Origin: an uncultured Erysipelotrichaceae bacterium
Lineage (GTDB): Bacteria; Bacillota_I; Bacilli_A; Erysipelotrichales; Erysipelotrichaceae
Direction of reading: 5' to 3'
Assembly: GCA_902782955.1 (NCBI GenBank)
Contig: CACZPD010000119.1
Span: 1-11,012 of the forward strand
DNA: 11,012 nt
Shown: positions 1 through 11,012 of the stretch, one piece after another
How positions within the stretch are numbered: position 1 is the stretch's first letter
Layout: the number at the start of each line of letters is the position of its first letter
Position numbers and translations under genes: made by a program
The notes under the pieces: generated by a model
What the model saw: the letters and a program-made list of their open reading frames with translations, nothing else
Databases searched by the model: none
What the model was told of the DNA's origin: nothing

Positions 1-48
1 ATACCGGAACGATTCGCTTCATGGTGTCCGGAATTTGAAAGTAAATAA
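1..48 (+). CDS. Possible C-terminal tail of an upstream gene (partial)
   Basis: Frame 1 is open from the window edge to a TAA at 46-48 and would give a 15-residue tail ending in CPEFESK. The stop lies 9 bases before a hairpin terminator, which is where a gene end is expected. Another frame also closes in this stretch (TGA at 36-38), so the frame is not certain. There is too little sequence to name a product. Confidence 0.3.
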   Translation: MPERFASWCPEFESK

Positions 49-57
49 AAAATACGG

Positions 58-82
58 GAGTTGTCATCAGACAGCTCTTTTT
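58..82 (+). terminator. Rho-independent terminator of the upstream gene
   Basis: An 8-bp stem, GAGTTGTC (58-65) with GACAGCTC (70-77) and one G-U pair, closes an ATCA loop and is followed directly by five T (78-82). It separates the preceding transcript from the tdh-kbl operon. Confidence 0.75.
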
Positions 83-110
83 ATGTAGTCAGCAATATAT
101 ATAAATGTTT

Positions 111-116
111 TATAAT
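111..116 (+). promoter_or_regulatory. Candidate -10 box for the tdh-kbl operon
   Basis: A consensus TATAAT sits in a very AT-rich stretch 54 bases before the tdh start. No convincing -35 box is present at 16-18 bp spacing, so activation by a protein or a different true start site is possible. The implied leader is about 47 nt. No operator or riboswitch-like structure was recognised here. Confidence 0.4.
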
Positions 117-169
117 AAAGACAGAAGAAATACCTGAACAAATAATAATTAACGGAGGATGTTTTTATC

Positions 170-1243
170 ATGAAACAGCAGGATGGAATGATGTGGGCTC
201 TTGTAAAGGACAAAGCCGACGTCGGACTGACGATGAAGCGTGTTCCGATTCCGAAAGTCGGTACCAACGACGTAAAGATCAAAATACTGAAAACAGCGAT
301 CTGCGGGACCGATGTGCATATATGGCAGTGGAACAAATGGGCACAGCACACAATCGATATCGGACGGGTAGTCGGACATGAGTATGTCGGCGTGATCGTG
401 GAAGCCGGACCGGGTGCCAGAGGATTCAAGCCCGGGGATTTCGTATCCGGGGAGGGACATATCACCTGCGGCAAATGCCGCAACTGCAAGGAAGGGCATA
501 AGGAAAACTGCCGGAACGCGGAAGGCGTAGGCGTCAACCGTGACGGCGCGTTCGCGGAGTATCTGGTCATTCCCTATGTCAATGTATGGCCGTGTTCTCC
601 CGATATCCCGCAGGAGATGTACGCGATCTTTGACCCGTTCGGCAACGCGACGCATACCGCATTGTCATACAATGTTCTCGGCGAAGATGTCCTGATCACA
701 GGAGCCGGGCCGATCGGCTGTATGGCGGCTGCCATCGTCCGGTTTGCCGGGGCAAGACATGTGGTCGTGACAGACTTCAACCCGTATCGTCTGGATATGG
801 CAAAGAAACTCGGCGCTACGACAGTCGTGGATCTGAATCATGAAAAACTGGAAGATGTCATGAACCGGATCGGCATGGAGGAAGGCTTTGATGTCGGTCT
901 GGAGATGTCCGGATCCGCGACTGCCCTGAATCAGATGATCCACGATATGAAGCACGGCGGGAATATTGCCCTGCTCGGACTGCAGGATCCTGATACGCCG
1001 GTCGATCTTGAGACGGTGATCTTCAACGGACTGAACCTGAAAGGCATTTACGGACGCAAGGTATGGGATACCTGGTACAAAATGACGACGATGCTGCAGG
1101 CGGGACTGGATATCGCACCGATCATTACACACCATTTCGATATCCGGGATTATAAGAAAGGTTTCGAGGCGATGATATCGGGACAGTCGGGAAAGGTCAT
1201 TCTGGACTGGACACATCTGTATGATGAAGGAGAAACAAAATGA
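170..1243 (+). CDS. tdh: L-threonine 3-dehydrogenase
   Basis: Zinc-dependent, NAD-linked medium-chain dehydrogenase that oxidises L-threonine to 2-amino-3-oxobutyrate in the cytoplasm. Visible motifs: catalytic-zinc residues C45 (in the ICGTDVHIW motif), H70 and E71; the structural-zinc cysteines C100, C103, C106 and C114; the nucleotide-binding GAGPIG (178-183) of the Rossmann fold, with an acidic residue (D202) at the end of the second strand, as expected for NAD. The [12 protein letters not shown] stretch (154-165) is typical of threonine dehydrogenases and separates it from sorbitol and alcohol dehydrogenases. At 357 aa it is slightly longer than the family's usual 340-350. The start at 170 is backed by GGAGG at 154-158; Met7 or Met8 are weaker alternatives. 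It overlaps kbl by four bases, as expected for a paired pathway. Confidence 0.93.
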
Positions 1244-2454
1244 ACAGACAGGAAATACTCAGAAAATACGCGGATGAGGTCACGGCAGTCAAAGAAGCCG
1301 GATTGTTTAAAGGAGAGCTGCCGATTGTTTCGGCACAGGGTGCGCATGTTAAACTCGCGGACGGCAGGGAACTGCTGTGCATGTGCGCGAATAATTATCT
1401 CGGACTCGGGAATTCCAGACGGCTGATCGAAGCGGCGGAAAAGACATATGATGAGCGCGGCTACGGAGTTGCGTCAGTACGCTTTATCTGCGGCACACAG
1501 GATATCCATAAACAGCTGGAAAAACGGATCTCCTCTTTCCTCGGAACAGAAGATACGATACTGTACTCTTCGTGTTTCGATGCCAACGGGGGATTGTTTG
1601 AAACATTGCTTTCCGCCGAGGATGCCGTGATCAGTGATGAGCTGAATCACGCTTCCATTATCGATGGCGTACGTCTGTGCAAGGCAAAAAGATACCGCTA
1701 TAAGAACAATGACATGGCGGATCTGGAAGAAAAGCTGAAACAGGCTGATGCGGACGGCGCAAAGATCAAACTGATCGCTACCGACGGCGTTTTCTCCATG
1801 GACGGGATCATCTGCAATCTGAAAGGGATCTGCGACCTGGCAGACAAATATGAGGCACTTGTCATGGTGGATGATTCCCATGCGGTAGGCTTTGTCGGCA
1901 AGAAAGGCAGAGGTACGCCTGAATACAACGGTGTGGAAGGCAGGGTGGATATCATAACCGGAACGCTGGGCAAAGCGCTCGGCGGCGCATCCGGCGGCTA
2001 TACATCCGGACGGAAAGAGATCATTGATCTCCTGCGGCAGAGAAGCCGTCCGTATCTGTTCTCCAATTCCCTGGCACCGGCAATTACCGGCGCGGCTATT
2101 GAACTGTTTGATATGCTGGAAGAAAGCACGGAACTCAGGGATCATCTGGAAGAGATCACGGTGGATTACCGGAAGAATCTGGTCGAAGCGGGATTCGATG
2201 TGATCCCGGGAACACATCCGTGCGTTCCGGTCATGCTGTATGATGAAGTGATTACAGCGGAATTTGCCCGCAGAATGGTGGAAAAGGGAGTCTATGTTGT
2301 GGCGTTCTCCTATCCGGTCGTTCCGAAAGGAAAAGCCCGTATCCGCACACAGGTCAACGCATGCCATACAAAGGAAGATCTGGAATTTGCGGTGAAATGC
2401 TTTAAGGAAGTACGGCAGGAAATGCAGGACGAAGGATGGTTTGAGAAAAAATAA
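1240..2454 (+). CDS. kbl: Glycine C-acetyltransferase (2-amino-3-ketobutyrate CoA ligase)
   Basis: PLP-dependent alpha-oxoamine synthase that cleaves 2-amino-3-oxobutyrate with CoA to glycine and acetyl-CoA, taking the unstable product of threonine dehydrogenase. The PLP-binding lysine is K245 in [13 protein letters not shown] (241-253). The DDSHAVG motif (211-217) supplies the Asp that contacts the pyridine nitrogen and a conserved His, and H137 in [11 protein letters not shown] is the ring-stacking His. The N-terminal NNYLGL (51-56) is the family signature. Length is 404 aa against about 398 for the well-known enzymes. The ATG overlaps the tdh stop in an ATGA junction, with AAGGAG at 1227-1232 inside the tdh end, so translation is probably coupled. 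The alternative family members KAS synthase (bioF) and HemA are less likely given the tdh partner. Confidence 0.93.
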
Positions 2455-2464
2455 CAGCCGTTTT

Positions 2465-2524
2465 AAGGACGATGTATCCGGAAATGAATTTTCATTCAGG
2501 GACGAAGATATATCGTCCTTTTTT
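2465..2524 (+). terminator. Terminator of the tdh-kbl operon, with two alternative stems
   Basis: AAGGACGAT (2465-2473) can pair with ATCGTCCTT (2512-2520), with T continuing to 2524. The shorter AGGGACGA (2498-2505) can pair with the same right arm (2513-2520). A small inner hairpin, AATGA/TCATT (2483-2496), fits inside the long form. Either form gives a stem followed by a T-run just after the kbl stop. Confidence 0.8.
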
Positions 2525-2533
2525 GTTACGGGG

Positions 2534-2564
2534 AAAATGAAAAACCGATGCAAAGGCATCGGTT
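2534..2564 (-). terminator. Terminator of the LacI-family gene
   Basis: A perfect 9-bp inverted repeat, AACCGATGC (2543-2551) and GCATCGGTT (2556-2564), has a 4-base loop. Read on the minus strand it lies 21 bases after the regulator stop and runs into TTTTT, then CATTTT. Read on the plus strand it is followed by an A-run, which marks it as a minus-strand terminator. Confidence 0.75.
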
Positions 2565-2585
2565 AAAAAACGATTGTGTTTCGGA

Positions 2586-3611
2586 TCAGCGGGTGCTTTC
2601 CCCATACATCGGTATAGTCTTCACATAGACCCACTGAAGGGGGAAATCAGGGTACTGGATCCTTTGTGCCAGGAAGAAGGCTGAAAGTCTGCCGATGTCA
2701 CTGCTTGGAATCTGGGCGCTGCTCAGGGAAGGCTGGACGAGAGCGGCTTCCATGGATCCGTCAAATCCCGATACCATCACATCCTCGGGGATTGACAGTC
2801 CTTTTTCTTTCAGTGCGGTCATCAGATGAATGGCGAGATAGTCATTGGCACAGGCAAACGCATCCGGCATTTCCGGCATAGCGTCAAGCTGTTCCAGAAG
2901 CCATTCGATATTCTCGTACTGCAGGCCGTCTTCTTTCAGAATGCAGAGATCTCTGTTTACGGAAAGACCGGATTTATACAGGCAGCCGCAATAAGCGATC
3001 CACCGTTCATAGAAACTGTTGCAGTGTTCGTAATCTCCTACAAATCCGATCTTTTTCGCACCGTGTTCGATCATGCGGCTGACCAGGATGGTTTCGCTTG
3101 TAATGTTTTCCATGGAAATAAAATCACAGTTTATCAGCGATTCACGGGCACGGGGATATCCGTCCACAAAAATAGTCGGCAGTTTGAGGGAACAGATCAT
3201 TTCAATGTATTCCCGGTCAAACAGTTCAATACCGAGGATCCCGGCTGTCTCTTTCGGATCAAAATGAGGCGGCAGTTTTTTTGCGGTGATTTCTTCACGG
3301 GATATCTCATACATCTTCATGGTGTATCCAAAGCGGCTGATCCGGTCGGTAAAACTCGTAATGAAGAACGCGCCGAAATTATGACTGAGAAGTTTATGCT
3401 GGGTCAGAACCGCGATTGTACCTGTATTTTTCTGAACCGGTTCGCCTCCGGCTGAATGCTGATAATATCCCAGTTCCTGGGCTTTGGCAAAAATCAGATT
3501 TTTCGTAGTTTCCGGTACAGAGCCGCGTCCGTTGAAGGCTTTTGAGACTGTATTGCGCGATAATCCGCATGCGTCAGCAATTTCCTGCATTGTGACTCTT
3601 TTCAGCCGCAT
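2586..3611 (-). CDS. LacI/GalR-family transcriptional regulator
   Basis: 341-aa DNA-binding regulator. The N-terminal helix-turn-helix is clear (about residues 7-27: TMQEIADACGLSRNTVSKAFN), followed by the usual third helix ending in AQELGY (44-49). The rest (about 64-341) is a periplasmic-binding-protein-like sensor domain, with GTIAVL (64-69), FACANDYLA (252-260) and VSGFDG (280-285) as family landmarks. Such proteins usually bind a sugar or sugar phosphate and release an operator. The segment after the HTH (50-63) lacks the usual hinge-helix pattern (PN..A..L), which is odd. The start is fixed by GGAGG at 3616-3620. It is divergent from the giant lipoprotein gene and shares its 347-base control region, so that gene plus the GH32 gene is its likely target. 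The ligand cannot be read from the sequence. Confidence 0.9.
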   Translation of the reverse strand: MRLKRVTMQEIADACGLSRNTVSKAFNGRGSVPETTKNLIFAKAQELGYYQHSAGGEPVQKNTGTIAVLTQHKLLSHNFGAFFITSFTDRISRFGYTMKMYEISREEITAKKLPPHFDPKETAGILGIELFDREYIEMICSLKLPTIFVDGYPRARESLINCDFISMENITSETILVSRMIEHGAKKIGFVGDYEHCNSFYERWIAYCGCLYKSGLSVNRDLCILKEDGLQYENIEWLLEQLDAMPEMPDAFACANDYLAIHLMTALKEKGLSIPEDVMVSGFDGSMEAALVQPSLSSAQIPSSDIGRLSAFFLAQRIQYPDFPLQWVYVKTIPMYGESTR

Positions 3612-3658
3612 AAATCCTCCTTTTCTATTATTTTAATTACCTTATTTAATTGAACAAA

Positions 3659-3686
3659 ATGATAGCATGAGAAAAATAAAATTCAA
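3659..3686 (-). promoter_or_regulatory. Candidate promoter of the LacI-family gene
   Basis: On the minus strand, TTGAAT (3686-3681) is separated by 16 bp from TATCAT (3664-3659), and TGC precedes the -10 box, giving an extended -10 (TGnTATCAT). It lies 48 bases upstream of the start codon. The GTTTAC element at 3688-3693 abuts the -35 box, which would suit autoregulation. Confidence 0.6.
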
Positions 3687-3771
3687 AGTTTACAAATCGT
3701 AAAGTCGAAGAGGCAAAACAGCTTTAGGCTTATAAGGTGCTCTATTATATACACAAAAACAGTTTACAAAT
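3687..3771. repeat. Direct repeat of AGTTTACAAAT in the control region
   Basis: The 11-mer AGTTTACAAAT occurs at 3687-3697 and again at 3761-3771, exactly 74 bp apart, close to seven helical turns. The first copy is also part of an imperfect palindrome, TTTACAAATCGTAAA (3689-3703). Both contain GTTTAC, whose complement GTAAAC recurs at 3814-3819 and 3926-3931. They are candidate binding half-sites, not proven ones. Confidence 0.45.
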
Positions 3772-3803
3772 TGCACATATTTACGCTTAAAAAACGGATA
3801 TTG

Positions 3804-3832
3804 TTGACATGCCGTAAACGCCGTTTCATACT
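3804..3832 (+). promoter_or_regulatory. Candidate promoter of the giant lipoprotein / GH32 operon
   Basis: A consensus -35 box TTGACA (3804-3809) is followed after exactly 17 bp by CATACT (3827-3832), which matches four of six positions of TATAAT. Transcription would begin near 3839, leaving a leader of about 120 nt before the start codon at 3959. An inverted repeat fills the spacer and ends against the -10 box, a classic place for repression. Confidence 0.65.
3814..3827. promoter_or_regulatory. Candidate LacI-type operator in the promoter spacer
   Basis: AAACG-C-CGTTT (3816-3826) is a perfect odd inverted repeat within GTAAACGCCGTTTC. LacI-family operators are typically short palindromes centred on CG. 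Its position between -35 and -10 would block RNA polymerase. That the neighbouring LacI-family protein binds it is an inference from position and shape. Confidence 0.5.
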
Positions 3833-3856
3833 TAAAATGAAGTAAAATTGCATCAT

Positions 3857-3897
3857 TTAGTATTTTTTTAATACTAATCCGGACTGCCGGGTCGGAT
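3857..3897 (+). promoter_or_regulatory. Two hairpins in the leader of the giant lipoprotein mRNA
   Basis: The first is a perfect 8-bp stem, TTAGTATT (3857-3864) with AATACTAA (3870-3877), around five T. The second pairs ATCC (3877-3880) and GAC (3882-3884) with GTC (3891-3893) and GGAT (3894-3897), with one bulged G. No T-run follows the second stem, so these are not simple terminators; mRNA protection is one possible role. No known riboswitch class was recognised. Confidence 0.4.
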
Positions 3898-3942
3898 TTA
3901 GAACAAATAAAGTCTGATTTCTGCAGTAAACGCATCATCAAT

Positions 3943-3950
3943 GGAGGAGG
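3943..3950 (+). promoter_or_regulatory. Ribosome binding site that fixes the giant lipoprotein start
   Basis: GGAGGAGG ends 8 bases before the ATG at 3959. An in-frame ATG at 3941 would place this ribosome site inside the coding sequence and add six residues (MEEEFG) before the signal peptide, so 3959 is preferred. Confidence 0.85.
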
Positions 3951-3958
3951 AATTCGGT

Positions 3959-6900
3959 ATGAAACGTGTGAGATTCATGGGCATTGGTTTGCTCATGTGT
4001 TCACTCCTGCTGACCAGCTGCGGACAGGATGCTCCGCAGCGTAATGCGGACGATCCCGAAACGGAAGAAGAAGCAACAAACTGGGAAGATATTTTCCCGT
4101 TTGAGAATTTTCCGACAGAAGGCCAGTCCCAGGAATCTGCAGGGAACACAGGGAAAGTAACGCCTGAACGGATCGACAATTCTATTTTCCGTGCCAAATT
4201 CGAAGGAACCGAAGTCGAAGGAACCGGTAAAGCGGTTGACGGTGTCTATCGCTTTAACGCTACCAAGACAGACGGGGAATCATGGCACGTCAAACTGGAA
4301 TGCAATTATCCGACTGTAGCGGGAAGAGATTACTTTGTAACCTATAACTTCCGCTCGGATGTGGCAGGTAAAGTTAAATTCGGAGATTTCCAGGAATTTT
4401 CGATTCGCAAAGGTGACAACAGCATTACAGGCGTCATGATAGCCTCGAGCGGCACGAGCTATCTTGATCTGCAGCTTGGTATGCTTTCACCTTTTACGAT
4501 CGATTTTACTTCGATCGAAGTGAAAGAATATGAGGATGAGTCCAAGTATGAAAACGCGCTTCCCAAACCTGTAAACTTCGAAAGAGAATCAGTCGTTTAT
4601 GAAAAACACGACTCCGGCTACGCTGTGATTCCTGTGCGCAGGGAAGACACGATCAATGTCAACTTCGCTGATGCACCGGATGATCCGGGTGTATGGAAGT
4701 CCAGGCTTTATGTCAGGACAGGCGTGATCCCTGAACTGGGTTCCCGTTACCGCGTTACTGCGGACATCATGTGTCATGATGACATGCCTTTTGAAGTCCT
4801 GTTTAACAACGGTGATGAAGAAAAGGGATACGGAGCTCTTTATGAACAGAGCTTAAAGGCGGATGAAGTCAAGAAGATCGAAGCTGTCGTAACAGGAAGA
4901 GGCTACGGCGATGAGCTTGTTATGCAGCTGTCCCTGGGTAAGACACCTGATGGATCCAAGGTGATCTTCGGAAATGTCCAGGTCGATAAAATTATAGATA
5001 ACTATACCAGCATGCTTCCGGCTGATTTTGAGCTGGATGATTCTATCTGGACCGGAGACTATATTGAGCAGATGATCCCGGTTGCTTTCAAAAAGCTTCC
5101 TCTGGATCTTACATACGACGGCATCGATACAATCTATGAAGGTCATGATGACGGTTATGTTGTTGATCTGAAGGAAAGTTCTTCAGAGGCGACATTCAAG
5201 ATCAAAAAGGCACCGGATAAAGCAGATGACCGCGGTGTATGGAAAGCAAAACTTTACGTCGCCACAGGTGTAAAACTGCAGCCCGGCCAGACTTACCTGG
5301 TTAAATATGATCTCACACCTACCGGTGATCAGGCTGATTATGAAGTCTGCTTCGACGGTGACAGCGAGAATGCTTACGGTGCGCTTTACGGACGCAGTCT
5401 GAAAGCAGGACAGACAGACCATGTTGAACAGCTGATCACGCCTGAATCCGCAGGCGGTCCGCTGACACTGCGTCTGCAGCTCGGTAAAACCGATTCCTCC
5501 AAAGGCAATACATATAAACTGAGCAACCTCAGCGTTGAATCAGTCAAACAGAAGTTCACAAACGTTCTTCCTTCAGATTTCTCATATGAAACAAGTGCGG
5601 GAAAAGTAAAATATGTCAGTGTTCTTCCGGATGATTTCGCTTACACGACAGGTGTAAATGTTACGGAACAGCATGACGATGTATATACCCAGAGTGTTTC
5701 CTCAACAGATGACAGTGCGACACTGGATATTATAGAAGCACCGTCCAGCGCAGATGACCGCGGTGTATGGAGGTCCAAACTCTATATTAACACCGGTGTT
5801 ACACCTGAAAAGGGAACGAAATATGCGATCAGCTTTGACGTTACAGGTGATAAAGACCAGGCAGAATACGAGATCTGCTTTGACGGCAAAGATGAAAAGA
5901 GCTATGGCGCTTTGTATGGCCAGAAAATGACTGCCGGTGAAACGAAGTCGATCAGGCACGCTTTTGTCGCGGAAAGCGATGAGAGTCCGATCATCATGAG
6001 ATTCCAGCTTGGAAAGACAGATGACGCTTCCGGAAACAAGATCACAGTCAGCAATATCAAGATCGCTGCCATAACTTTAGGAGATACGGAATCCATCCTG
6101 CCGGATGATTTTGCTTATCCTACAGTAAGCACGACAGAGCCTGGTGAAGACGGATTCGTTCCGGTAACTATGCCTTCTTCACCGGATTTCTCAGAAGCAC
6201 ATGATCCTGGATTTGAACAGTCAAAAGACGGTTCTTCCCTGAAGATCACCAAAGTTTATCGTGATTCATGGAATTCCAAACTAATTGTAAATACCAATAC
6301 AACACTGGAAGCCGGAAAAAAGCACAGAATCACGTTTAACATCAAATCAACAAAGGAAATCGATGATTTCGAAATCGACTATCACAAAGGTGGTGATGAA
6401 AAAGAATACGGTGCATTGTATCGCCAAAGCATCGCTGCAAATGAGACAAAAAAGTTCGTATATGAAACTGGTGATGAAATTCCGGAGGGAAATCTGTTTA
6501 TTCTGCTTAAGGTAGGCCGCAGCCCTGTTCCGAATACCATTACTGTCAGTGATGTGAAGATCGAGAAGTATGTTCCGGAACATACAGAAACTATTGATGT
6601 GCCGGAAGGATACAAAGATGTAAGTATCAATATTTCAGCAAGTCAGAGCTGTGATGATGATTATCAACAGACGCTTTCAGGCACTGCCCTGACGATCGAC
6701 GCAGTTTCCGCGGAGCCGGGTGTAGGGAAATCCAAGTTATTTATTCATACCGGCAAGACACTGGAGGACGGGAAGAAGTATAAGGTCACTTCAAACGTTA
6801 CATCAGAAATAGCCCTTGATGCTTTTGAAGTCTGCTATAACAAAGATGGTGCTGAAAAAGGCTATGGGGCAGATTATAGTCTGAGTATGGGCGCATCCGA

Positions 6901-9700
6901 TAAAACGATTGTGAAGGAATTCACAGCTGATGGCTCAGGAGTCCTTGATCTGCAGTTCCAGCTGGGCAAGAGTCCGGTCGGCAATACATTCAAGGTCAAC
7001 AGTGTTAAGCTGGAGGAATTTGTTCCTGCACATTCGGAAGAGCAGGATGTTGAAGGCGCTTATGAAAATGTAGAGATTTCCGGTCTTACAGCAACGGAAG
7101 CACATGATGATAACATTAATCAATCAGTAAGCGGCACTTCACTGACGATAACCCAAAATCATGGTGTATGGCAATCCAAACTGTTCGCAGATACCGGGAC
7201 CAAGCTTGAAGCGGGCAAGGAATACAAAGTGACAGCGAACGTCACGTCCACTGAAGAGTTTAATTTCGAAGTTGTTTATAACAACGGCAGTGCAGAAGAT
7301 GCTTTTGGTACAGACCGTGGACTGAGCATAGGCGCCGGTGAAACAAAAGATATTACACATGAAATCACAACAGCGTCAGATCTCAGCGCAGACAATCTGG
7401 TCCTCCAGTTCATGATGGGCAACAGTCCTGCGAATACATTCACTGTGAACAGTATTACCCTGGAAGTGAAAGAGGACGGCGAGGAACCGGTTCAGATAGT
7501 TGATCCGAAATCGTTCAATTACGCGTCAGATAAGGATTACAAAGTGTCTCTGAGCGGTGACGGCAGTTCTGCAAAACTCACTACAGATCAGGCGGAATCT
7601 CCTGCAGTATGGAAAGCGAGACTCTTTGCAAAGACCGGCGCAATACTGGAAGCCGGAAAGACATACCGGATCAGCGCAGATGTTAAGGCAGACTCCGAAA
7701 CAGGTTACGAGATCTGCTACAACAGCGGTGATGAAGAAAAAGGATTCGGCGCGAAGTACGACCTTACAGCTTCTGAAACAACAGAGACTGTAGAATATAC
7801 AGTGACACCGGATCGTACGGGTGAACTGAACATCCAGTTTGCCCTCGGTAATACCCCGGTTGGAGAAAGCGTAACGGTAAGCAATATCAAGGTTGAAGTG
7901 TTTGCGGAGGAAGAAGGCGAAAACCTCATGACAGATCCTCTGATCGCATGGGCTCCTGTTCACGAGTTCATGGATGCTGGTTATTCGGGAGATCTGACAA
8001 ATGATGATTCTTCCGCCACTCTGAAACTTGATACGGTTGCGTCCGAACAGGCAGACTGGAAAGTCAAACTGTTTGTAGAGACCGGAGCGAAGCTCGAGAA
8101 AGGCAAGAAATACCGTATCAGCTATAAGCTGAGGGCAGATAAAGCGACCACGTACAATGCTTTCTACAACAACGGTACTGAAGAAAAGGCTGTCGGAGAC
8201 TTCTATGATCTGAGCACAGGCAATACTATGATCAGACATACAGTGAAGCCTTCAGATGATGCAGAACTGATCATCCAGCTGATGCTCGGAAACAGCCCTA
8301 AGAATAACAATCTGACGATCAGTGATGTTAAGGTTGAGGAAGTAATTGAAGAAAATCCGAACAGACCGATCAATGTCTGGGTACATGAGGACTACAAAGC
8401 AAGTCTGTCGAATACGAAGTCTTCCGCAAGCCTGGCGATTACAAAAGTTCCGAGTTCCGGACGTGAAGCATGGAAGATCAAACTCTTTGCGGAGACCGGC
8501 GCGAAACTGAAGAAAGGCAAGACATACCGCGTGAGCGTTGATGTCAAGTCGCAGTCAGCGATGGAATACGAGATCTGCTACAACAACGTTGAAGTTGAAA
8601 AAGAACTCGGCGCACAGTACGGTCTGAAAGCGACAAGCAGCAAGAAGACTGTTACTTACAACATCACACCTGAAAAGGATGCTGAACTGATCCTTCAGTT
8701 CGGACTCGGCAATGCTTCCAAGGCAAATACATTCACGATCAGCAACGTGAAAGTCGAAGAGTCAAGCATCAGTTCTTCCAGGAACGTCATTCCGGACTTC
8801 ACTTATGACAGCGTAGGCTATATCAGCAAAGCTGCAGACGGAGACTATATCACTTCTCTTGATCAGAAGGATTCTTCTGCTGTGTTCAATATCAAGAAAG
8901 CACCTTCCGACAGACATCCTTGGGAGGCAAAGGTCATTGTCCGTACAGGTGTCACACCGAAATCCGGCAAAGGCTACCGCGTCAGCGTGGATATCGATTC
9001 AGCGAGATCGCAGAACATGTTCGAAGTGTTCTATGACGGAAAAGAAGAACTGGCATACGGTGCGCTCTATGAGCAGTATCTGCCTGCCGGCAAGAAGACG
9101 TTCTCATACATCATTTATCCTGGTGACAGCAAAGGTGAGATTTCGATGCAGCTCCGCTTCGGTGAGACCAACAGCACCAACGGAAATGTCTACAAGATCA
9201 GTAACGTCAAGGTCGAAGAAGTCACATTCAAGCACACGAGGACACCTGAGATCAGGAATGTATCTGAACTGGATACACAGCCCGGCTATACCTCAACGCT
9301 GGAGAGGACACCGTTCAAGGATACGATACGTCTGATCAGGACACCTGAAGAAGGCCGTGAAGCCTGGAAGACAAAACTCTTTATTACTACCGGAGCTACC
9401 CTCCAGGAAGGACAGAAGTACCGCATCCGCATGCTCGTCAAGTCCATCATTCCGGCACCGTTCGAAGTATGTCTGAACAACAAGGATGTTGAAAAGGGTC
9501 TCGGCGGAATCTTCGGACTGATGTCCAAGCCATATGGCGAATACGTTGAGTATTCCGCTTATGTCAAGGAAGATACGAAGCTCGTCATTCAGCTTTCTCT
9601 CGGCAACTGTGTCGCACCGAACACGATCATGGTCAGCGACGTCAAGGTCGAAAAAGCAGGAAAGATCAACCTGATTTCGGATAAGATTTACGTCTTCTGA
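3959..9700 (+). CDS. Giant surface lipoprotein of twelve CBM4/9-like beta-sandwich modules
   Basis: 1913 aa. Residues 1-20 are a lipoprotein signal peptide (KR near the N-terminus, hydrophobic core, lipobox LLTSC), so C21 should be lipidated and the protein tethered outside the membrane. Residues 22-72 are an acidic, probably disordered stalk. The rest is twelve diverged modules. A typical module reads: acidic/aromatic lead-in with HDDGY; W[KQR].KL[FY]..TG..L..GK.Y.[VI]; [FY]E[VI]CYN.GDEEKGYGALY; then L..Q..LG..P..NT..[VI]S[ND][VI]KVE. This strand pattern recalls CBM_4_9 / galactose-binding-like sandwiches, but the match is from pattern only. No catalytic motif, LPXTG signal, C-terminal membrane helix or S-layer domain is visible. 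It is followed after 56 bases by the GH32 lipoprotein gene with no terminator between, so a glycan-binding or scaffold role is inferred. A purely structural adhesin or spacer is the main alternative. Confidence 0.85.
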   Translation: MKRVRFMGIGLLMCSLLLTSCGQDAPQRNADDPETEEEATNWEDIFPFENFPTEGQSQESAGNTGKVTPERIDNSIFRAKFEGTEVEGTGKAVDGVYRFNATKTDGESWHVKLECNYPTVAGRDYFVTYNFRSDVAGKVKFGDFQEFSIRKGDNSITGVMIASSGTSYLDLQLGMLSPFTIDFTSIEVKEYEDESKYENALPKPVNFERESVVYEKHDSGYAVIPVRREDTINVNFADAPDDPGVWKSRLYVRTGVIPELGSRYRVTADIMCHDDMPFEVLFNNGDEEKGYGALYEQSLKADEVKKIEAVVTGRGYGDELVMQLSLGKTPDGSKVIFGNVQVDKIIDNYTSMLPADFELDDSIWTGDYIEQMIPVAFKKLPLDLTYDGIDTIYEGHDDGYVVDLKESSSEATFKIKKAPDKADDRGVWKAKLYVATGVKLQPGQTYLVKYDLTPTGDQADYEVCFDGDSENAYGALYGRSLKAGQTDHVEQLITPESAGGPLTLRLQLGKTDSSKGNTYKLSNLSVESVKQKFTNVLPSDFSYETSAGKVKYVSVLPDDFAYTTGVNVTEQHDDVYTQSVSSTDDSATLDIIEAPSSADDRGVWRSKLYINTGVTPEKGTKYAISFDVTGDKDQAEYEICFDGKDEKSYGALYGQKMTAGETKSIRHAFVAESDESPIIMRFQLGKTDDASGNKITVSNIKIAAITLGDTESILPDDFAYPTVSTTEPGEDGFVPVTMPSSPDFSEAHDPGFEQSKDGSSLKITKVYRDSWNSKLIVNTNTTLEAGKKHRITFNIKSTKEIDDFEIDYHKGGDEKEYGALYRQSIAANETKKFVYETGDEIPEGNLFILLKVGRSPVPNTITVSDVKIEKYVPEHTETIDVPEGYKDVSINISASQSCDDDYQQTLSGTALTIDAVSAEPGVGKSKLFIHTGKTLEDGKKYKVTSNVTSEIALDAFEVCYNKDGAEKGYGADYSLSMGASDKTIVKEFTADGSGVLDLQFQLGKSPVGNTFKVNSVKLEEFVPAHSEEQDVEGAYENVEISGLTATEAHDDNINQSVSGTSLTITQNHGVWQSKLFADTGTKLEAGKEYKVTANVTSTEEFNFEVVYNNGSAEDAFGTDRGLSIGAGETKDITHEITTASDLSADNLVLQFMMGNSPANTFTVNSITLEVKEDGEEPVQIVDPKSFNYASDKDYKVSLSGDGSSAKLTTDQAESPAVWKARLFAKTGAILEAGKTYRISADVKADSETGYEICYNSGDEEKGFGAKYDLTASETTETVEYTVTPDRTGELNIQFALGNTPVGESVTVSNIKVEVFAEEEGENLMTDPLIAWAPVHEFMDAGYSGDLTNDDSSATLKLDTVASEQADWKVKLFVETGAKLEKGKKYRISYKLRADKATTYNAFYNNGTEEKAVGDFYDLSTGNTMIRHTVKPSDDAELIIQLMLGNSPKNNNLTISDVKVEEVIEENPNRPINVWVHEDYKASLSNTKSSASLAITKVPSSGREAWKIKLFAETGAKLKKGKTYRVSVDVKSQSAMEYEICYNNVEVEKELGAQYGLKATSSKKTVTYNITPEKDAELILQFGLGNASKANTFTISNVKVEESSISSSRNVIPDFTYDSVGYISKAADGDYITSLDQKDSSAVFNIKKAPSDRHPWEAKVIVRTGVTPKSGKGYRVSVDIDSARSQNMFEVFYDGKEELAYGALYEQYLPAGKKTFSYIIYPGDSKGEISMQLRFGETNSTNGNVYKISNVKVEEVTFKHTRTPEIRNVSELDTQPGYTSTLERTPFKDTIRLIRTPEEGREAWKTKLFITTGATLQEGQKYRIRMLVKSIIPAPFEVCLNNKDVEKGLGGIFGLMSKPYGEYVEYSAYVKEDTKLVIQLSLGNCVAPNTIMVSDVKVEKAGKINLISDKIYVF
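4184..4528 (+). repeat. Module 0 (residues 76-190), most divergent copy
   Basis: It keeps the Trp (W109 in SWHVKL), the YFVTYNFRS strand (125-133), FGDFQEFSI (141-149) in place of YGALYEQSL, LDLQLG (169-174) and a closing FTSIEVKE. It lacks the TG..L..G turn and the EVCYN strand. As the membrane-proximal copy it may be specialised. Confidence 0.6.
4577..4993 (+). repeat. Module 1 (residues 207-345), sub-type A
   Basis: W246 in GVWKSRLYV, TGV (254-256), YRVTADI (264-270), FEVLFNNGDEEKGYGALYEQ (278-297), QLSLGKTP (323-330) and GNVQVDKI (338-345). It has no Cys in the FEV strand. A 45-residue linker, the longest in the protein, follows. Confidence 0.8.
5129..5545 (+). repeat. Module 2 (residues 391-529), sub-type A
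   Basis: HDDGY lead-in (396-400), W428 in RGVWKAKLYV, C464 in YEVCFD, YGALY (473-477), and LQLGKT followed by the longer SSKGNTYKLSN turn (512-523). The DNA for the W region shares 22 identical bases with module 3. Confidence 0.8.
5654..6073 (+). repeat. Module 3 (residues 566-705), sub-type A
   Basis: HDDVY lead-in (572-576), W604 in RGVWRSKLYI, C640 in YEICFD, YGALY (649-653), FQLGKTDDASGN (682-693) and VSNIKI (697-702). It is closest to module 2 by eye. Confidence 0.8.
6185..6571 (+). repeat. Module 4 (residues 743-871), transitional
   Basis: HDPGF lead-in (748-752), W771 in SWNSKLIV, FEIDYH without Cys, and YGALY (817-821) as in sub-type A. The closing GRSPVPNTITVSDVKIEKY (853-871) is of the sub-type B form. 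It thus joins the two sub-types. Confidence 0.75.
6632..7021 (+). repeat. Module 5 (residues 892-1021), sub-type B with Trp replaced by Gly
   Basis: CDDDY lead-in (898-902), then GVGKSKLFI where every other module has Trp in the third position; G923 is codon GGG at 6725-6727. C959 in FEVCYN, YGADY (969-973), and FQLGKSPVGNTFKVNSVKLE (1000-1019). Confidence 0.8.
7088..7471 (+). repeat. Module 6 (residues 1044-1171), sub-type B
   Basis: HDDNI lead-in (1049-1053), W1071 in GVWQSKLFA, FEVVYNNG (1103-1110), FGTDR (1116-1120) in place of YGALY, and FMMGNSPANTFTVNSITLE (1151-1169). The lead-in to Trp is the shortest of the series. Confidence 0.8.
7517..7903 (+). repeat. Module 7 (residues 1187-1315), sub-type B
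   Basis: W1218 in AVWKARLFA, C1253 in YEICYN, FGAKY (1263-1267), FALGNTPVGESVTVSNIKVE (1294-1313). It shares a 19-base identical run (TACGAGATCTGCTACAACA) with module 9. Confidence 0.8.
7955..8344 (+). repeat. Module 8 (residues 1333-1462), sub-type B
   Basis: W1367 in DWKVKLFV, YNAFYNNG (1399-1406) without Cys, VGDFYDLS (1412-1419) in place of YGALY, LMLGNSPKNNNLTISDVKVE (1441-1460). Confidence 0.8.
8372..8764 (+). repeat. Module 9 (residues 1472-1602), sub-type B
   Basis: W1505 in AWKIKLFA, C1540 in YEICYNN, LGAQY (1550-1554), FGLGNASKANTFTISNVKVE (1581-1600). It is joined to module 8 by only about nine residues. Confidence 0.8.
8819..9223 (+). repeat. Module 10 (residues 1621-1755), sub-type A out of order
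   Basis: W1655 in PWEAKVIV, FEVFYDG (1688-1694), YGALYEQYL (1700-1708), and LRFGETNSTNGNVYKISN (1732-1749), which has the longer sub-type A turn. It resembles modules 2 and 3 although it lies between sub-type B copies. Confidence 0.8.
9260..9658 (+). repeat. Module 11 (residues 1768-1900), C-terminal copy, sub-type B
   Basis: W1803 in AWKTKLFI, C1838 in FEVCLNN, LGGIFGL (1848-1854), LSLGNCVAPNTIMVSDVKVE (1879-1898). Only 13 residues (GKINLISDKIYVF) follow, so the protein ends on this module with no anchor. Confidence 0.8.
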
Positions 9701-9756
9701 TCATTCAGGAATTCTTAAGATAAGCAAGATGATCAAATAAGAAAGGTGTGTACAAT

Positions 9757-11012
9757 ATGCGTAATCAGAAATATTCGCTCCCGCTGCTTCTGGTCATGAC
9801 CTTGTCTCTGACTGCCTGCAATGCCGGCAAAGGTTCCGGAGAAGCGGGCGGCAATCAGGGAGGAGTTCCTGATAATGGTTCTGCCGCAGGCACAGAGGAG
9901 ACGTACGAAGCTGTGGATTACAACCTGTATCCCGCGCCTGAAAAAGGCTATGTAGGTGATGTCATGCCCTTTGTGACCGATGACGGTCAGCTGGAATTGT
10001 ATTATCTGTGTGAAACAGATTCCAACGGTCAGGGCTATCACCCGATCTATAAATTCAGCACAAAAGATCTTTGTTCCTACAAGGATCACGGCATGGTGCT
10101 CAACTACGGACTTGGTACAGAGCCTGATCCCGCACTGGGAACAGGATCTGTCATGCAGGACGCAAACGGACTCTACCATCTGTTCTATACCGGTCACAAT
10201 GACAACGGCAACGGCGGAAAAGGCAAGGAATGTGTCATGCATGCGACCAGCACAGACCGTGAGAACTGGGTGAAGGACAGCAATGTCGTGTTCTTCGCAC
10301 CGGAAGGTTATTCCAAGGATGATTTCCGTGATCCGGAAGTCTTCTGGGTGGAAAGAGATCAGTGCTACTGGCTCCTGATCGCGGCCAGGGAAGAAGAAAC
10401 ACTGGGCGGCGTAGTTCTCAAGTATACTTCAAAAGACCTGAAGAACTGGCAGATGGTCGGACCGATCTTCGCTCCAATGGCCCAGTATATGCTTGAGTGC
10501 CCGGATCTCTTCAACATCGGGGATACCTGGTATCTGACATACAGCTGGGACTGTGTGACTTACTATGCGATGAGTGATTCCATGGATGGACCGTTTGTCC
10601 CGGCAAGGGACAATGTCCTGGACGGCAAAGGTCTGACAGAAGGCAACGGGTTTATCTTCTATGCCGCAAAACCGGCAGAGCTCAACGGAAATCTCTACTT
10701 ATGCGGCTGGCACGGACGCGCAGGTGTAAGCTCGGATTCCGGCATCTATCAGTGGGCAGGAAGCGTGATGGTTCATCAGATCGTCCAGCTTGATGACGGA
10801 AGACTCGGCGTCAAGGCTCCTGAAACATTCGATAACTACTTCACAGCTGATAAGCCTGTCAAGGCAGCCGCAAAGGAAGGCAAAGTCGAGATCAGCGACA
10901 ACAACATCACGCTCTCGGCAGAACCTGAAAAATACGCGCTGGCTGACATGGGTGTAAGACCGGCGACCATGACGCTGGAATGCGATGTAACGATCGATCC
11001 GGACGGCATTGC
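9757..11012 (+). CDS. GH32-like beta-fructosidase lipoprotein (partial, runs off the window)
   Basis: 418 complete codons are visible with no stop. Residues 1-20 are a lipoprotein signal peptide with lipobox LTAC, lipidated at C21, then a Gly/Ser/Glu-rich stalk (to about 52). From about 57 the five-bladed propeller of glycoside hydrolase family 32 can be followed: YVGDVMPF (65-72), where D68 stands at the nucleophile position; GTGSVM (128-133); FYTGHN (143-148); FRDPEVF (190-196), the RDP transition-state motif; and ECPDLF (247-252), with E247 the general acid/base. WAGSVMVHQ (333-341) ends the propeller, and a beta-sandwich domain probably begins after about 375. Such enzymes cleave beta-fructosyl bonds of sucrose, inulin or levan from the non-reducing end. 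AAAGG at 9742-9746 and the lipobox support this start. Exact substrate is not readable; another clan GH-J or GH43-like activity is the alternative. Confidence 0.85.
   Translation, partial: MRNQKYSLPLLLVMTLSLTACNAGKGSGEAGGNQGGVPDNGSAAGTEETYEAVDYNLYPAPEKGYVGDVMPFVTDDGQLELYYLCETDSNGQGYHPIYKFSTKDLCSYKDHGMVLNYGLGTEPDPALGTGSVMQDANGLYHLFYTGHNDNGNGGKGKECVMHATSTDRENWVKDSNVVFFAPEGYSKDDFRDPEVFWVERDQCYWLLIAAREEETLGGVVLKYTSKDLKNWQMVGPIFAPMAQYMLECPDLFNIGDTWYLTYSWDCVTYYAMSDSMDGPFVPARDNVLDGKGLTEGNGFIFYAAKPAELNGNLYLCGWHGRAGVSSDSGIYQWAGSVMVHQIVQLDDGRLGVKAPETFDNYFTADKPVKAAAKEGKVEISDNNITLSAEPEKYALADMGVRPATMTLECDVTIDPDGI

Follow-up and report, generated by a model that had tools for sequence, protein, structure and literature searches.

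Here we describe a three-gene unit in an 11,012-nucleotide stretch of DNA from an uncultured, ruminant-gut Erysipelotrichaceae bacterium (assembly GCA_902782955.1, contig CACZPD010000119.1, positions 1 to 11,012; hereafter the window), which encodes a LacI-family regulator, a giant lipoprotein of twelve CBM4-like modules and a GH32 lipoprotein. With a probability of roughly 0.72 the unit represents a horizontally spread system in which a fructan-capture fibre is paired with a tethered endo-fructanase. These odds derive mainly from the co-occurrence of modules and GH32 genes, their natural fusions and the module fold. The original prediction, made from the sequence alone, had proposed a multivalent fructan-binding fibre or scaffold for the enzyme, and our analysis supports it, while fructan binding itself is what we infer. 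The giant gene runs on the forward strand from an ATG at 3959 to the end of its stop codon at 9700 and encodes 1913 amino acids (in the list of open reading frames, ORFs, this frame begins further upstream, at 3941). The ATG of the GH32 gene lies at 9757 on the same strand, and the site scan listed no terminator-like site in the intervening 56 bases. The LacI-family gene is divergent and to the left of the giant gene (2586–3611, reverse strand; Pfam LacI 34.2 bits, Peripla_BP_3 85.7 bits) and is part of the cassette in relatives. Giant, spacing and divergent regulator are all as originally described.

A profile built from modules 2–12 finds 11 domains in the giant at an independent E-value below 0.01, which is by construction since the profile derives from the same modules. 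Pfam CBM_4_9, an independent model, matches three stretches of the protein with 70.3 bits against a cutoff of 25.9. The profile-matched modules lie on the forward strand at 4598–4993 (module 2), 5135–5545 (3), 5663–6070 (4), 6191–6571 (5), 6641–7021 (6), 7094–7468 (7), 7517–7903 (8), 7961–8344 (9), 8372–8761 (10), 8825–9223 (11) and 9272–9658 (12), and modules 3–12 are 23–38% identical to module 2. Module 1 (approximately residues 61–193; 4139–4537) is degenerate, absent from the profile matches and recognisable by alignment only, so that the twelve diverged copies reported earlier stand as eleven strong modules and one degenerate. Module 10 modelled alone has a predicted local distance difference test score (pLDDT) of 97.5. 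In a fold search with this model the 15 highest Z scores belong to CBM4 modules (1ulo, 4mgs and 4qpw counted among them), to BtSGBP-B and to CBM1 of the xylanase BiXyn10A. As modelled, the modules have the CBM4 β-sandwich fold, and the sandwich claimed from the letters alone withstood structure prediction with CBM4 relatives on top. In a model of modules in tandem each module folds, with a predicted template modelling score of 0.55 that is too low to fix the geometry between modules.

Both proteins carry the lipoboxes first noted in the original prediction, LLLTSC in the giant and LSLTAC in the GH32 protein as read from the sequence. A homologue search that scored 7982 candidates found 148 proteins, 120 of which are listed and underlie the homologue counts that follow. 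By a crude pattern the lipobox occurs in 98 of the 120 listed giants, and a lipobox pattern is also present in 41 of 49 GH32 frames. Profile-detected modules number 6–19 among the listed homologues, the longest of which (P0022) has 3120 amino acids. The extreme C-terminus is a conserved tail, ending in ISDKIYVF in the window (9659–9697, forward strand) and resembling ISDTIYTF (consensus KAG...SDTIYTF) in 107 of the 120. Its codons differ between loci and its residues are kept; it is similar to the strand with which a next module would begin, and the last 13 residues of the window protein are predicted to be disordered (pLDDT below 50). Docking of this tail to GH32 is a guess.

The second lipoprotein (9757–11012) runs past the window end, with 418 of 527 amino acids inside. 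The whole protein (P0001) is present in the contig of a sister strain (L021), is 100% identical over those 418 residues, and is followed by only about 110 bases of sister contig. The GH32 N-terminal domain PF00251 matches the window protein with 113.2 bits against a cutoff of 22.1, and the partial protein gives no match to GH32C, the Pfam family of the C-terminal β-sandwich domain. Among solved structures the full-length protein scores 176 bits with the BT1760 entries (6r3r, 8a9y, 7znr) and 55 with the next best, and it aligns with BT1760 up to residue 499; a 35-row GH32 profile gives 213 and 82 bits respectively. Bacteroides thetaiotaomicron has BT1760 as its surface endo-levanase; the entry codes and the residues Asp41 and Glu221 are taken from published accounts (PMC6560043, PMC7618045). 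By eye, D68 and E247 of the window protein align with these two residues, the catalytic Asp nucleophile and Glu acid/base, and Y94 and W333 match the active-site aromatics Y70 and W318 (PMC7618045, where numbering is one higher). All four residues, together with the RDP stabiliser R191-D192-P193 and the lipobox Cys21, are invariant in 35 of 35 aligned GH32 proteins, comprising P0001 as first row and 34 of 44 listed frames; L039, which was left out, is without the lipobox Cys. With BT1760 as nearest solved relative and the catalytic residues kept, the window protein is very likely a fructan-active GH32 enzyme and likely an endo-levanase. The GH32-like lipoprotein of the original prediction is thereby upheld.

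Pairing of enzyme and modules recurs in other genomes. A pattern scan of a genome collection with GH32 alone, which catches close relatives only, yielded 57 loci titled Erysipelotrichaceae, Lachnospiraceae, Ruminococcaceae/Oscillospiraceae, Coriobacteriaceae and others. Scanning of all stop-to-stop frames places a module gene directly before GH32 on the same strand in 15 of these loci, and in 10 of the 15 a gene of the same LacI family stands divergently before the module gene. The gene order of modules, GH32 and LacI noted originally recurs. In L031 and L065 the module gene is broken into frames. In L069 the giant has collapsed to a 25-residue frame (7498–7575), its start joined to the C-terminal tail, before an intact GH32 gene; if the assembly is right this is a natural deletion of the array, and an artefact is possible.

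The reverse search, with modules alone as query, covered 400 genomes of one family (21 matches) and 392 genomes of the window's phylum (5 matches). It gave 22 module genomes not met before, from which 19 were fetched and G486, G532 and G558 left out. GH32 is in the same ORF as the modules or near them in 18 of the 19, fused in four, overlapping the module frame or at most about 155 bases from it in 12, and at 1.9 and 3.2 kb in two, whereas homologues that never occur with GH32 would have spoken against the original prediction. In 60 genomes related to that of the window, 84 GH32-query matches were counted; at that density chance alone would place a GH32 gene within about 6 kb in about one per cent of cases in a 2–3 Mb genome, a rough figure taken from other genomes. 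Three loci (L149, L150 and L153) are natural fusions in which one frame of 2755–2914 amino acids holds 12–13 modules and then GH32, and L152 is a cut case; the N-termini of the three have a signal-like segment and no obvious lipobox. A separate ORF of 2481 amino acids (L145, 2513–9955) has 16 module matches. In a whole-genome module search (E up to 1e-5) of 14 genomes with module loci, all matches shared a single contig in 13 genomes and were spread over two in G158, and the same search found no modules in five genomes of module-free loci.

These distributions bear on an alternative in which the module ligand is glucan or xylan of the plant cell wall. The giant would then attach the cell to particles of grass, and the GH32 enzyme would take up fructan that leaks out of the plant cells. 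The ligands of the closest fold and sequence relatives, CBM4 modules and BtSGBP-B, are β-glucan, xylan or xyloglucan, and sticking to plant particles would benefit a ruminant-gut cell. However, the module family goes together with GH32 genes in 18 of those 19 genomes and with importer operons that contain GH32, the modules are confined to one contig in nearly all module genomes searched, and the fusions put modules and enzyme in a single chain. We regard this alternative as unlikely. That the unit acts on bacterial levan, a biofilm exopolysaccharide, instead of plant fructan appears improbable. The source is named in 10 of the 57 locus titles and is always ruminant gut (goat, sheep, cattle or roe deer), where grass fructan is generally known to be abundant. 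Bacterial levans are substrates of BT1760, the nearest solved enzyme, but so is levan from timothy grass (PMC5245892).

The importer operons are found in nine loci of the reverse search (L155–L163), where a frame of 546–754 amino acids with one to three detected modules adjoins both a canonical GH32 gene and a BT1760-like GH32 gene, here GH32-b. Eight of the nine, all but the cut contig L162, further contain a solute-binding protein and two permeases. Pfam detects CBM_4_9 in all five small module proteins scanned (four from these loci, one from L146) and Bact_surface_Ig-like in three, above the cutoff in two of these. The presence of small module proteins in importer operons with GH32 points to an origin of the giant by enlargement of a small protein that was once part of an ordinary operon for fructan import.

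Upstream of the module gene an operator-like site is conserved. The pattern TTTACANNNTGYRMA was read off upstream stretches, so that its abundance there is partly by choice. The 57 loci together with the window amount to 827,448 bases, in which it occurs at 21 places. Of 29 strand matches, 24 lie within 500 bases before a module gene, counting the L069 remnant, and the remaining five either immediately precede a GH32 gene or, in L031, follow LacI. Two operator-like sites stand 149–151 bases apart in L030, L034, L069, L072 and L073, and 172 apart in L032. Across ten whole genomes the pattern occurs 37 times, as against 9 for a reversed control, with 22 of the 37 on the contig of the unit. Seven of the ten contain the perfect palindrome TTTACA-N3-TGTAAA, in each case nowhere but on that contig. 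When the whole window is scored with a matrix built on 17 sites from other loci, the two best places are an operator-like site at 3762–3778 (24.5 bits; the one exact pattern match) and an operator-like palindrome at 3688–3704 (17.0 bits), 74 bases apart. The sites are consistent with a dedicated regulator of LacI type that frequently uses them in pairs, and we infer its binding to these putative operators. CG-centred LacI palindromes were rejected as the operator, with one match in 12 upstream stretches taken as chance and the conserved site centred differently. Between site and giant gene lies a promoter-like TTGACA-17-CATACT (3804–3832, forward strand), which matches at 10 of 12 positions and ranks in the top two of the window's 15 such sites, a number that by itself is not evidence given 14.2 expected from shuffles.

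By flanks and GH32 the window and L021 belong to the same species; dS is 0.004 and dN 0 for LacI, and dS is 0.011 for GH32. DNA identity is 82.7, 66.4 and 88.5% for modules 5, 6 and 7 and 94.8–100% for the other eight strong modules. Modules 5–7 (window 6150–7500, L021 4561–5960) are therefore a replaced, strain-variable block in an otherwise near-identical gene, and no source for the replacement was found among the loci collected here. Between families module position is kept. Of 33 best matches of window modules in the 11-module proteins of L022, L030 and L072, 29 fall at the same position, with 40–74% identity for same-position matches versus 38–50% for the best match within the protein; the ten-module L073 and L032 were compared as well and stand outside this count. 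The ratio of nonsynonymous to synonymous substitution (dN/dS) for the giant is 0.29 to L021 and 0.17 to L022, where dS is near saturation, values that indicate purifying selection on average. Although the replaced block and the variable array length would suit an array that is mainly spacer or surface coat, its length serving to lift something or to shield the cell, with modules 5–7 varying by phage or immune escape and sugar binding vestigial in most modules, this is very unlikely given the constraint on module position and sequence, and it leaves the GH32 link unexplained.

Among 149 relatives of the nearest genome, drawn from genus and order, strong module matches occur only in the sister genome and four others have one weak match each (1e-4 to 1e-3). 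Horizontal transfer of the unit is therefore likely, as judged from this distribution rather than from a tree. Module-bearing GH32 genes do not form one clade, with 14 rows needing at least three changes and 31 of 500 shuffles as low. Mobility on plasmids was considered and rejected, as tblastn of modules 10–12 and the tail against 72,556 plasmid records gave no match at E 1e-5. A different insertion site in the sister strain was suspected and likewise discarded: contig L021 opens within the same kbl gene. ORF c59, considered in this context, is an antisense artefact with no Pfam match.

Several observations weigh against a fructan-capture fibre coupled to the enzyme. To our knowledge solved CBM4 modules bind β-glucans, xylan or xyloglucan, and we know of none that binds fructan. 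No module gene was detected in 42 of the 57 GH32 loci, some on short or cut contigs, which suggests that in many species the enzyme acts on its own, with no fibre. In the reverse search GH32 is not adjacent to the modules in G425 and G247 (1.9 and 3.2 kb), none was seen in G396, where the module ORF is open to the contig end, and only a canonical GH32 was seen in G546. GH32-b genes score 200–344 bits (one 905) on the GH32 profile and the fused ones 193–216, so that most are distant cousins of the window enzyme. The secondary levan site of BT1760 (W217, F243) is not kept in the window protein by eye, 15 of the 37 whole-genome operator matches lie away from the contig of the unit, and the window, which ends on the right within GH32, has no transporter.

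Weighing both sides, we favour a model of capture and cleavage at the cell surface. A LacI-type repressor would occupy the dedicated operator sites and lift upon a fructan-derived sugar, and the two lipoproteins would be made from one transcript. The giant, lipid-anchored at its N-terminus, may reach through or along the cell wall as a chain of twelve CBM4-fold modules and hold a long fructan chain at the surface through many weak binding sites. The tethered GH32 protein would then cut the held polymer internally as an endo-fructanase, most likely of levan/phlein type acting on β-2,6 linkages, to yield oligosaccharides. A separate ATP-binding cassette (ABC) importer could take these up for processing by a second, canonical-type GH32 enzyme; in some relatives importer and second enzyme are encoded in the same locus.

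The left flank of the window (170–2454) is the threonine degradation pair tdh-kbl, encoding L-threonine 3-dehydrogenase and glycine C-acetyltransferase. The pair is present in 6 of 11 other congeners searched at 77–80% identity, and GH32 relatives in these are on other contigs. A Pfam scan of 17 chosen neighbour genes revealed no fourth gene common to most module loci. A Bmp/PnrA-like substrate-binding protein (cluster c11) adjoins the unit in 3 of the 15 (L025 7427–9373, L030 1–2025 and L076 3510–5453). In L056 (3901–10686) another giant surface protein, of 2261 amino acids with three SpaA (prealbumin-like) stretches, directly follows the GH32 gene, and in L071 (4309–8199) two divergent GH32 genes of the same family sit beside a 1430-amino-acid ORF.

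Fructan is a major soluble sugar store of pasture grasses. A fuller proposal, which we rate as somewhat better than an even bet, is that the unit is an unnamed Gram-positive fructan-capture machine, whose twelve-module fibre would be the first fructan binder of CBM4 type. It would be paired or fused with a BT1760-type endo-levanase and have spread as a self-regulated cassette among ruminant-gut Bacillota, its strain-variable module block tuning which fructans are caught. If true, Gram-positive gut bacteria would have, for fructan, an equivalent of the surface glycan-binding proteins of Bacteroides. Arrays of a few to 19 modules, and natural loss as in L069, beside related enzymes would offer a clean test of why surface binding modules multiply. 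It would also add a new ligand for the CBM4 fold, beyond two earlier fructan-binding module families and a third from 2023 (PMC10076258).

The original prediction knew of no named Gram-positive system of this design, and our search of the fructan, GH32 and CBM literature, with most subscription journals outside its coverage, likewise found no published fibre of this kind. CBM38 and CBM66, attached to GH32 enzymes, were the only two fructan-binding module families reported before DUF4960 (Lev-Lev5) was added in 2023 (PMC10076258). Like all three, the giant is a putative non-catalytic fructan binder; it would differ from them in its CBM4-like fold, long arrays and separate lipoprotein, and DUF4960 is not among the Pfam families listed for the giant (E up to 1). 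Sequence identity of the modules to CBM4 modules, such as CBM4-2 of the Rhodothermus marinus xylanase, and to BtSGBP-B is only 13–15%. Gram-positive polysaccharide utilisation loci of Roseburia and Eubacterium rectale are reportedly clusters of regulator and enzyme genes in Firmicutes. The definition of such loci includes a transporter in the same locus, which some relatives of the unit have. The small-module relatives resemble these loci in sitting in importer operons, whereas the window unit consists of regulator, fibre and enzyme only, with a giant binding array. The closest functional parallel is the levan utilisome of B. thetaiotaomicron, which comprises the endo-levanase BT1760, the surface glycan-binding protein BT1761 and SusCD (PMC7618045). 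Both would combine a surface lipoprotein GH32 with a surface lipoprotein binder and deliver oligosaccharides to an importer (PMC7618045). They differ in that the hosts here are Gram-positive, no SusCD-like gene is among the five window genes scanned by Pfam, and the importer, of ABC type in relatives, lies outside the window. The binder differs too, with twelve CBM4-fold modules in place of the two Ig-like domains and one globular domain of BT1761 (PMC7618045).

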